From: Campylobacterales bacterium
GTDB taxonomy: Bacteria; Campylobacterota; Campylobacteria; Campylobacterales; QNZT01
Direction: 5' to 3'
Assembly (NCBI GenBank): GCA_026994915.1
Contig: JALWPY010000191.1
Span: 1 to 35,874 of the forward strand
Length of the DNA: 35,874 nucleotides
A program made the position numbers and the translations under genes. Positions 2,134-21,631 of the stretch are shown here, piece after piece. The notes under the pieces are model-generated. The model saw only the letters and a list, made by a program, of their open reading frames with translations, was not told where the DNA came from and made no database searches. Numbering within the stretch: the stretch's first letter is position 1; each line of letters opens with the position of its first letter.

Positions 2134-3582
<1,449 letters not shown>

Positions 3583-18228: not shown

Positions 18229-19952
18229 TTGTTTATCAAAAGTGCTCTTCTTGTCGGGATGTTTCTCTTTTTTACTGGCTGTGACAGCAGTGATATGCCA
18301 TCGCAACTTTCCGCTAAAAGTGTGGAGAATTCCTCCGTTCAACAGCTTGAATCGAACCAGTCGGAGTCACAAGAGACTGTTATGGCAGAGCCAGAGATAT
18401 CTGCTGTACCGTTTGTGACGGAGCAACATGAAGATTTCAATATCACTGAAGTAAATAGAAGTGAAATGAATCTCTCCATCCCTATGGACTATCCCTACCA
18501 CCCTCCAAAAGGCAAAAATATCGCCGCTGCCAGTTTCGATGGCAGCTTTGAAAAGTTAAATGCCAATATCTCACTCGAACACGCCGTATGGGATGATACG
18601 CTGGCCAGAAGCGGGAGCCATTCGATCTTGCTGGCGCAGAAGGGTGATACGTTACAGATGCAAAATATCCCGGTAGAAGAGGGTGCTTGGTATGTCGTAA
18701 CGGGGTATATGTATCTGCCATCGTTGCCGGCGGATGTCGTGCGATACTATGTTGAGTTCATGTATAACGATCAGTCTGTCGATATCCCCAACTATCCTGT
18801 GGTGTCAGTTTTCAAAGCGAAAAGCTGGGAACCTTTCGTATTGCCGGTCTATATCAAAAAAGACGCCAATATCACAGATATCCGGCTGGTGTTCAGAAAT
18901 ACCGGTGTGCCCAAAAGCGCCTTGCCTCATGCATCCGGTGTCTGGCTTGATGATATCGAGGTGCATAAAGTCGGCAGCAGTGCAAAGCTGTTTGGTTTGG
19001 AAGCACCCTCTCAAAAGCGCGATTTCAACGGTACCCTCGTACGGGTCGATGCACTGGGAAACTTCTCATTACGGGATGGTGACGGCTACAAACCGTTTAT
19101 GCCTGTCATCATCTATCCGGGCGGCAATATGAGCCGGTGGGACAAATACAGAGAAAAAGGATTCAACACGATCATCTGCAACTCTCTGAAAGAGGCACAA
19201 AAAGCGGTGGCGCTGGGGATGCACTGGATCTGGTCGCTCTACGACTACGGTATCTATGAGGGGGATAAAGCGGGATATGCCCGTTTTGAAAGAGAGTACC
19301 GGCAGATGCGTCGTGACATGCCGGAACTTTTCGAAAAACTGCTCTGGTTTTACTGGGATAATGAGCGTTACCGTCTTTATGACAGTGTCAAACATTTCAG
19401 CGATACGATCAAAAAGCTCGATGTCGATGCGCAAGGGCGACGCTATAGACCCTTTTTGATGCAGCTTGATTTTGCCACAGCCAATCCCCATTATGTGAAT
19501 GAGAGGGAGGCACTGGTCGATCTGCAGGGGCTCTATGCCAATCCGATGGTCTTTGAAGACAACGATCCCCAAAATTATCAGGGAGTCGAGTTCAAAGGCA
19601 ATTATGACGGTGAGTTTGCCAACTTCGCCATCTTTGACCATATTCCGGGTGTGACTATCCCTAAAACTGTCTTTGTCATCAACTCGCCCTTTGGTGACAA
19701 ACACCTGGCAAACACGATTTTTGCCGCATTTGCCAGAGGGGGCAAGGCGTTTGCCTACTGGAAGGATGGCGGCAGTCAGCCGGCAGTTGAGACAAAACCC
19801 TGGTGGAGAGATTTCAACCGGACCACCAGGAAGATGTGCAGGAGGGTGCTGCAGTCATCGACTACTTTACACAAAAACGTGTGGCCGTCTGGCACGACGG
19901 CGCTTTCGAGCTGGATCTGAAGCCCAGAGATTATGGCGTCTACTGCTGGTAA
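18229..19952 (+). pseudogene. Lipoprotein with beta-sandwich-like and TIM-barrel/glycoside-hydrolase-like regions; C-terminus frameshifted
   Basis: TTG start, lipobox MFLFFTGCDSS. ORF ends at 19920 in an atypical tail, while the -1 frame from ~19818 reads PDHQEDVQEGAAVIDYFTQKRVAVWHDGAFELDLKPRDYGVYCW* to 19952. Confidence 0.6.
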
Positions 19953-21097
19953 GCACTCGGACGCGATTTGGCCATCGCAACCGCCCTGGCTGCATTGATC
20001 TTGCCGTAAGCGCGTCTGGTGTTGAACCCGTCCGCATTGTAGTAAACATACTCACTTTCGATCTTCTCCGCAGTTTCGATCAATATCTCCCGGATAGCAT
20101 CGGGAGTGAGAGAGGGATTGACACTGAGCATGAGTGCCGCCGTGCCTGCTGCGAGGGGGCATGAAAAACTGGTACCGGTTTCGAAAGCATGTGCATCGTC
20201 AATTTCGAGCGTATATCCGTTGGGAAAGCGGTAACTGGTATAGGCGACCCCTTTGGGACCAGTGTCATCCAGTCCCAGCAGTCCCAGATATTCTCCACCG
20301 GGTGCCAGTATATCGATATTTTTGCCGTAGTTGGAGTAGCTGGCGAGTCGGTTGTATTCGTTGGTTGCGCCTACGCCGATGACGCTGGGAAGTTCTGATT
20401 CGTCATAGATGCCCGGTGCATCGAGATTCTGGTTGCTGTTGACGGGCGTAGGGCCGTTGTTGCCGCTGGCGAAAAAGATCGTGATATTCTGCTTTTTTAG
20501 TGAGGCGAGTTCAGAGGCGACCGCTTCGGAGACATCGCCGGTACCCCAGCTGTTGCTGATGATTTTCGCACCATGTTTTTTGGCGTATTCGAAAGCCCTG
20601 ATCGTTGCGGCATCGTCAGCATAGACCTGAGCGATCAGCAGAAGCTTACTGTCAGGGGCGGCACCGAGTATACCGTAACCGTTCGGAACAGCAGCGATGA
20701 AACCGGCTGCGGCAGTTCCATGAGATGATGTATCTTCCTTGTTTTTGACATCCCGCGAATCTTCGTCTGCATTGTAGCGATCCGCGACATTCTCCTGCAG
20801 ATCGGGATGGTCGATTTCAAAGTTTCCATCGATGACGGCGACTGTAATATCTTCTCCCCGGGTCTCCTGCCATGCATCACGTATATGGATGGAGGCATCG
20901 GGATTGACGCCGATCGTTCGGGTAAATTCGTTTTGTGTATAAGAGAGGTACCACTGATAGGGAAAGTAGGGCTCATTGTCGGGATTGAAGTGGGTACGGT
21001 ACTCGCTGCTTCGCATGGTTTTGATACCGTTGTCGTTGCCGCATGCAGTCAGCATGATGAGTGCTGCGAGCAGTGGGAAAAGCGTTCCTTTTTTCAC
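19940..21097 (-). CDS. Subtilisin-like serine protease (S8), lipoprotein, lacking its own propeptide
   Basis: GTG start, lipobox LLAALIMLTACG; triad Asp VAVIDGNF, His SSHGTAAAGF, Ser GTSFSCPLAAGTAA; oxyanion ASGNNGP. Confidence 0.9.
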   Translation of the reverse strand: MKKGTLFPLLAALIMLTACGNDNGIKTMRSSEYRTHFNPDNEPYFPYQWYLSYTQNEFTRTIGVNPDASIHIRDAWQETRGEDITVAVIDGNFEIDHPDLQENVADRYNADEDSRDVKNKEDTSSHGTAAAGFIAAVPNGYGILGAAPDSKLLLIAQVYADDAATIRAFEYAKKHGAKIISNSWGTGDVSEAVASELASLKKQNITIFFASGNNGPTPVNSNQNLDAPGIYDESELPSVIGVGATNEYNRLASYSNYGKNIDILAPGGEYLGLLGLDDTGPKGVAYTSYRFPNGYTLEIDDAHAFETGTSFSCPLAAGTAALMLSVNPSLTPDAIREILIETAEKIESEYVYYNADGFNTRRAYGKINAARAVAMAKSRPSAYQQ

Positions 21098-21486
21098 CGC
21101 GGTTGCCTCTTTTTGATGAAGTTGGGATGGGCAAGGGTGATGCATGGGAGTGCATGGAGGGCATTTGCCACGGCAAAAGGATCGGCATCTTTTTTGAGAT
21201 GGAGCAGATAGAGGGTATCGGAGAGTTTTTCGATCTTTTCGATCGGATAGTCTCTGAAGTTCTGACAACAGTGGTCGAAATCGTCACATCCGATGATCAC
21301 TTCATGTTTGACGCCCAGTTTCGTCCCTGCAGGGGTGAGATACCAGGTGGTGCTGTTCTCCCCCGCAGATCTTTGTGACGGCAGTGGTGTCAGCGGGACT
21401 TTTTTGCCAAAAGAGTAGTAGTAGGTATCGGCGCCCAGCGAGAGACTGAAAGTGAGTAAAAACAATAGTTTATATTTTCTTCGCAT
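21094..21486 (-). CDS. Stand-alone S8 propeptide / inhibitor I9-like secreted protein
   Basis: Signal peptide MRRKYKLLFLLTFSLSLGA; TKLGVKHEVIIG...SDTLYLLHLKKDADPFAVANALHALPCITLAHPNFIKKRQPR resembles subtilase N-terminal prodomains; GTGA overlap with the protease. Confidence 0.6.
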   Translation of the reverse strand: MRRKYKLLFLLTFSLSLGADTYYYSFGKKVPLTPLPSQRSAGENSTTWYLTPAGTKLGVKHEVIIGCDDFDHCCQNFRDYPIEKIEKLSDTLYLLHLKKDADPFAVANALHALPCITLAHPNFIKKRQPR

Positions 21487-21631
21487 ATTCTATCCATATG
21501 TTGATTTCATAATTTTATCATACCAAATCAGTGTAAACAGAGTGTCTATCTGCAAAGTATATCGGGTAAAAATTTGTTTTCTTCAATTTTGTGTGCTATA
21601 ATGAGATAAAAACAGCCTGAATTGGAGTGCC

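Follow-up and report, generated by a model that had tools for sequence, protein, structure and literature searches.

A subtilase of a Campylobacterales bacterium probably has its prodomain made as a separate, independently exported protein, which would assist folding of the enzyme in trans and then block its active site with an Arg-ended tail; we put the probability of this reading at roughly 87%. The two genes lie in the stretch of DNA that was analysed as a whole (hereafter the window: positions 1 to 35,874 of contig JALWPY010000191.1, assembly GCA_026994915.1), and sequence and prediction back the reading through the layout of the genes, the homology of the small protein to part of one-piece subtilases, its predicted fold, the lack of a cis prodomain in the protease and an Arg residue at the junction.

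Two minus-strand ORFs constitute the pair – the upstream one encoding 130 aa, the one that follows 385 aa – and share the four nucleotides GTGA at 21094-21097, just as an earlier sequence-only reading of this DNA had placed them, both the ORF coordinates and the overlap being borne out on re-reading the sequence (Table 1). For the protease, the mechanical ORF caller chose a TTG at 21268 as the start; the lipoprotein leader begins at the GTG at 21097. Both ORFs are real genes under purifying selection, as dN/dS against the nearest relative amounts to 0.115 for the small gene and 0.088 for the protease. The promoter-like site seen at 21509-21537 does not exceed chance expectation. The neighbourhood is kept in near relatives: to one side of the pair lie an Rrf2 regulator gene and flhA, and three of these relatives also have a gene for a 563-aa lipoprotein on the opposite side. 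In the window, this predicted lipoprotein gene (18229-19920, plus strand) is convergent to the pair; a Pfam search with its product gave no match, and the relatives in which it also adjoins the pair are L062, L067 and L078.

Table 1. Features of the split subtilase locus in the window (functional assignments are predictions)
Feature	Position	Strand	Remarks
Putative separate prodomain protein, CDS, 130 aa	21094..21486	-	ATG start, TGA stop; homologues in 35/99 relative genomes
Sec signal peptide, residues 1-19, cleavage about LGA/DT	21430..21486	-	Sequence reading; hydrophobic leader retained in relatives
Residues 20-130, the predicted mature prodomain: a pair of N-terminal strands followed by a beta-alpha-beta x2 core	21097..21429	-	AlphaFold2 model; best PDB match 3wqb_B
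C-terminal tail RQPR, Arg130 adjoining stop codon, predicted P1 residue	21097..21108	-	28/28 split, 25/27 one-piece
AGAGG, Shine-Dalgarno-like, within small gene, before protease GTG	21106..21110	-	Sequence
GTGA, protease start codon overlapping small-gene stop codon (putative translational coupling)	21094..21097	-	Same -1 offset in most relatives
Prodomain-less S8 subtilase lipoprotein, CDS, 385 aa	19940..21097	-	GTG start; PF00082 E=5.9e-48
Lipobox LTAC, Cys19 (predicted acylation site), Gly next	21041..21052	-	24 aligned split proteases all have this Cys
Catalytic Asp90	20828..20830	-	Invariant
Catalytic His126	20720..20722	-	Invariant
Oxyanion Asn213	20459..20461	-	Invariant; aligned to subtilisin BPN' Asn155
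Asp232-Glu233 pair, candidate basic-P1 determinant	20399..20404	-	Invariant; aligned beside subtilisin S1-pocket residue 166
Catalytic Ser310	20168..20170	-	Invariant

In the small protein, a Sec-type signal peptide (MRRKYKLLFLLTFSLSLGA) comes first; the C-terminus, directly before the stop codon, reads ...AHPNFIKKRQPR (also given as ...SDTLYLLHLKKDADPFAVANALHALPCITLAHPNFIKKRQPR), its final residues being Gln-Pro-Arg. Direct searches of the window copy against Pfam, NCBIfam and PDB sequences gave no significant match, and a profile of 53 relatives retrieved only chance matches from PDB sequences. Of 99 related genomes, 35 encode homologues, which take one of two forms: stand-alone ORFs about 130-150 aa long, or N-terminal domains within one-piece S8 ORFs about 470-720 aa long. 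In 27 one-piece forms the homologous domain lies N-terminal to S8 in a single chain, among them L013, which matches the small protein at E=5.1e-20. Within the same genomes one finds both the stand-alone form (beside a prodomain-less S8) and the one-piece form, and the window's own genome encodes a one-piece paralogue of 486 aa on contig C94 (E=9.4e-9 to the small protein). Viral contigs and plasmid records, also searched, yielded no relatives.

At the level of domain families, 25 of the 53 members match Fervidolysin_NPro-like (PF22148) at E<=1; the window copy gives no such match, and those above the curated cut-off include the one-piece paralogue from the same genome and the stand-alone proteins L026, L046 and L052. 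ORF_2_N (PF18492), the family of the ASP chaperone discussed below, is matched weakly by seven of the 53 at E<=1 (best E=3.8e-4), all members scanned singly falling below its cut-off, and a search with PF18492 across the order found sub-threshold matches only. In Pfam, Inhibitor_I9 did not match the window protein at E<=10, and it is absent from the 25 families listed for the 53 members at E<=1.

For the mature small protein, AlphaFold2 predicts a core of two beta-alpha-beta units (pLDDT 83.9, pTM 0.71), whose best Foldseek match among 350,542 PDB chains is 3wqb_B, that is ORF2, the external chaperone of the Aeromonas sobria protease ASP (probability 1.00, TM 0.60/0.66, 113 columns, E 5.5e-3); at a threshold of E 0.001, no match among these chains passes. 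The PC1/3 prodomain is matched as well, also with probability 1.00, and the prodomain 9fid_D is among the matches. When the one-piece paralogue from the same genome was modelled in search of canonical docking of the prodomain, that docking was not reproduced: compared over both domains with pro-subtilisin E (3whi) and fervidolysin (1r6v), the model deviates by 24-25 Angstrom rmsd.

The one-piece homologues in related genomes, the PF22148 matches of relatives and the predicted fold support the identification of the small protein as a subtilase prodomain of the fervidolysin/ORF2 type. This agrees with the sequence-only reading, which had taken the upstream gene, with its own signal peptide, for a prodomain-like protein and had named the lack of a prodomain fold as the outcome that would speak against it; the predicted fold is of the prodomain type (pLDDT 84). 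As to the prodomain families it had proposed to search by profile and fold, the fervidolysin/ORF2 type was recovered, via relatives and fold, and the I9 model was not. That the window copy has no direct Pfam or PDB sequence match might suggest an unrelated periplasmic protein, co-operonic with the protease by chance, but we regard this as highly improbable, given that the small protein matches ORF2 in fold and shares highly significant homology with the N-terminal domain in one-piece S8 proteins such as L013; the one-piece homologues refute it.

Two features of the small protein vary within or mark parts of the family. Cys67 and Cys73 do not vary among the 15 closer split prodomains and might form a disulfide. 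In L031, L032 and L056, the small protein itself bears a lipobox (TAC-A, SAC-A and NAC-A, respectively), so that both partners would be membrane-anchored there; the earlier description of the propeptide as diffusible thus fits the window protein but does not extend to at least these three relatives.

The protease has a complete Asp-His-Ser triad and the oxyanion Asn within a highly significant Peptidase_S8 match (Table 1), and none of the 24 aligned split proteases deviates at Asp90, His126, Asn213, Ser310 or the lipobox Cys. Since only 28 residues lie between the lipobox Cys19 and the conserved Trp that opens the catalytic module, there is no room for a cis prodomain, and PF00082 is the sole Pfam match, with no P-domain; the lipobox, the complete triad and the missing prodomain noted earlier from the sequence agree with this spacing and with the invariant residues. 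The closest solved catalytic domains are those of mirolase (from Tannerella) for the split proteases, and of mirolase followed by furin/Kex2 for the one-piece paralogue. Mirolase, Kex2 and furin all have a cis prodomain, unlike the window protease.

The paired two-ORF form recurs in dozens of genomes from many genera of the order, their Campylobacterota hosts being sulfur-cycle bacteria, and most protease starts in these relatives show the same 4-nt start/stop overlap. Phylogenetic analysis of 65 catalytic domains places split proteases in two clades, both well supported – one of 25 rows, including the window, and one of 11 – with the main one-piece clade (19 rows) apart from both; the free tree separates the two split clades, and a single origin of the split pairs, imposed as a constraint joining them, is not rejected (p-AU 0.151). 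The split is genuine and ancient. Next to no weight can be given to the idea that a frameshift, through sequencing error or in a pseudogene, has cut a single gene into these two ORFs: although related one-piece genes do exist in the same genome, the two-ORF form is found in tens of genomes in well-supported clades, the protease ORF comes with a start, a leader and a lipobox of its own, and dN/dS is about 0.1 for both genes. We reject this explanation on the strength of the recurrence across independent assemblies, the dN/dS values and the separate leader. The sequence-only reading had likewise argued against a simple frameshift, and the split, the separate starts, the signal peptide and the lipobox indeed recur across many genomes; the comparison of split and fused relatives that it had suggested turned up both forms, including the one-piece copy in the same genome.

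A telling new feature of the split is where it falls. In the window's clade (clade A), each of the 28 split prodomains ends in Arg immediately followed by the stop codon, and in clade B 10 of 11 have Arg as the last residue; of 27 one-piece homologues, 25 carry Arg at the corresponding model position, mostly 9-18 residues before the W-H-L motif of the mature domain. On the simplest reading of these sequences, the conserved Arg would be the P1 residue of self-processing, and the split gene would end exactly there – the stop codon, in other words, appears to be placed where the precursor would be cut. We infer that the protease prefers a basic P1 residue, which fits both the Asp-Glu pair near S1-pocket residue 166 and the resemblance of the one-piece paralogue to furin/Kex2, enzymes that cut after Arg. 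The Arg-stop rule places the split at the likely processing site and thereby predicts the inhibitory end and the P1 preference without a structure.

The explanation that we propose extends from here to binding, help with folding, inhibition, release, P1-Arg specificity and membrane location. Coupled translation of the two-gene unit, with its 4-nt overlap, would yield similar amounts of both proteins, which would cross the inner membrane separately, the protease acquiring a lipid anchor. The partners might then find each other at the membrane or in the periplasm, and the small protein would there act in trans as a folding template for the lipid-anchored protease. The Arg-ended tail of the small protein would occupy the active site in the manner of the product of a completed self-cleavage, and the protease would stay inactive until the small protein departs or is digested. 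A one-piece subtilase would reach the same state after self-cleavage; the split pair would require none. From the conserved C-terminal Arg, we infer that the helper is needed for folding and that it would inhibit the mature enzyme via its C-terminus.

Both activities have precedents. Maturation of ASP requires ORF2, whose C-terminal Lys lies at the catalytic Ser and which inhibits ASP with an IC50 of 84 nM (PMC5638518). The retained prodomain of the clostridial protease CspB restores folding in trans when supplied separately and plugs the active site with its three C-terminal residues (PMC3567191), yet in CspB prodomain and protease are encoded in one chain.

Inhibition might also be the main task of the small protein, which would then act as a standing periplasmic inhibitor shielding the cell from an anchored protease that folds without it. 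The same fold class provides stand-alone inhibitors in eukaryotes (PMC6993865), a product-like Arg C-terminus fits inhibition, and orphan copies without an adjoining protease exist. Nevertheless, we consider this unlikely, as the split protease lacks any other prodomain and prodomain-bearing subtilases generally depend on that domain for folding; moreover, an obligate partner fits both the tight gene overlap and the matched evolution of the two proteins, pairwise distances of small protein and protease correlating with r=0.86 in split pairs, against r=0.81 in one-piece proteins – a tracking that can, however, arise from shared ancestry alone. Small proteins with the prodomain fold, such as POIA1 (from Pleurotus), yeast IB2, SPI-1, TgMIC5 and the malaria SUB1-ProM, are eukaryotic inhibitors, and enzymes inhibited by stand-alone inhibitors of the POIA1 type keep their own prodomain, whereas the putative cognate protease in the window has none.

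Among the closest known systems is ASP/ORF2, found in Aeromonas sobria and also from Vibrio, Shewanella, Chromobacterium and Pseudoalteromonas. It shares with the window pair a prodomain-less subtilase and a separately exported protein of prodomain fold encoded by adjacent genes, a helper ending in Gln-Pro and a basic residue (Lys in ORF2, Arg in the window protein) and, ORF2 itself being the best PDB match of the window protein, the predicted fold. It differs in that the helper gene is downstream of the protease in ASP/ORF2 but upstream in the window; in the enzyme, the window protease being a 385-aa lipoprotein without a P-domain and ASP an extracellular, kexin-like protein of about 600 aa; and in family ties, as the window family has recognisable one-piece relatives and matches ORF_2_N below the cut-off. 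Given these differences, we do not count the pair as a member of ASP/ORF2, although it would operate in the same manner. ORF2 was reportedly described, in a 2015 JBC paper, as lacking recognisable propeptide relatives. Several relatives of the window protein belong by profile, above the cut-off, to the domain family of the fervidolysin-type prodomain (PF22148) of one-piece subtilases; the window copy lies below the cut-off, and it has its own gene and its own export. Elsewhere in the Campylobacterota, an ORF2-like gene is adjacent to or downstream of the protease gene at L096, L097 and L105, of which L096 and L097 encode P-domain subtilases; this layout is apparently the classical ASP/ORF2 arrangement. 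L112 is an ORF2-like protein (PF18492 E=4.5e-6); no S8 was found in its retrieved locus.

According to a 2022 survey of subtilases, ASP is the exception to the rule that the N-terminal propeptide acts as an intramolecular chaperone (PMC9549277), and in the open-access literature that we searched, pairs of this sort are not described for Campylobacterota. The split family would add a widespread second case beside ASP, and we are inclined to see in it a second, separately derived propeptide-deficient subtilase, in which gene fission at the self-processing residue gave rise to a trans-acting chaperone and inhibitor with a ready-made product end. Since a single bacterial order contains one-piece forms alongside split ones with the helper upstream or downstream, the transition from an intramolecular to an external chaperone could be traced in living lineages. 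Two questions – what purpose the covalent link between prodomain and enzyme serves, and how an intramolecular chaperone turns into an external one – become directly testable, since for the split pair, unlike ASP/ORF2, one-piece forms exist among close relatives and even within its own genome.

Some relatives depart from the common layout. In L056, a member of the window's clade, the order is reversed, with the helper gene downstream. The same genome, G012, which carries its helper there, has a second split-type lipoprotein protease (L115:1789-2856) with neither a cis prodomain nor an adjoining small gene, so that two proteases might share a single helper. L116:7304-7693 and L058:3422-3823 (minus strand) encode prodomain proteins that stand alone, with no neighbouring protease, the latter having lost the Arg-stop end. 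At L044 (genome G097), the protease lies in two overlapping frames (2407-3396 and 3300-3575, minus-strand coordinates); judged by its sequence, with the near-identical L102 intact, this is a frameshift or an assembly error. Finally, the genes L066:4294-5430 (= the L010 gene) and L060:1968-2738 (= the L008 gene) look like a natural circular permutation of a subtilase: the C-terminal segment GFDTxRAYGKLNAIKAVxMAQS stands at the N-terminus, directly after the lipobox, and L066 stops where this segment should start, while the L060 contig ends within the gene.
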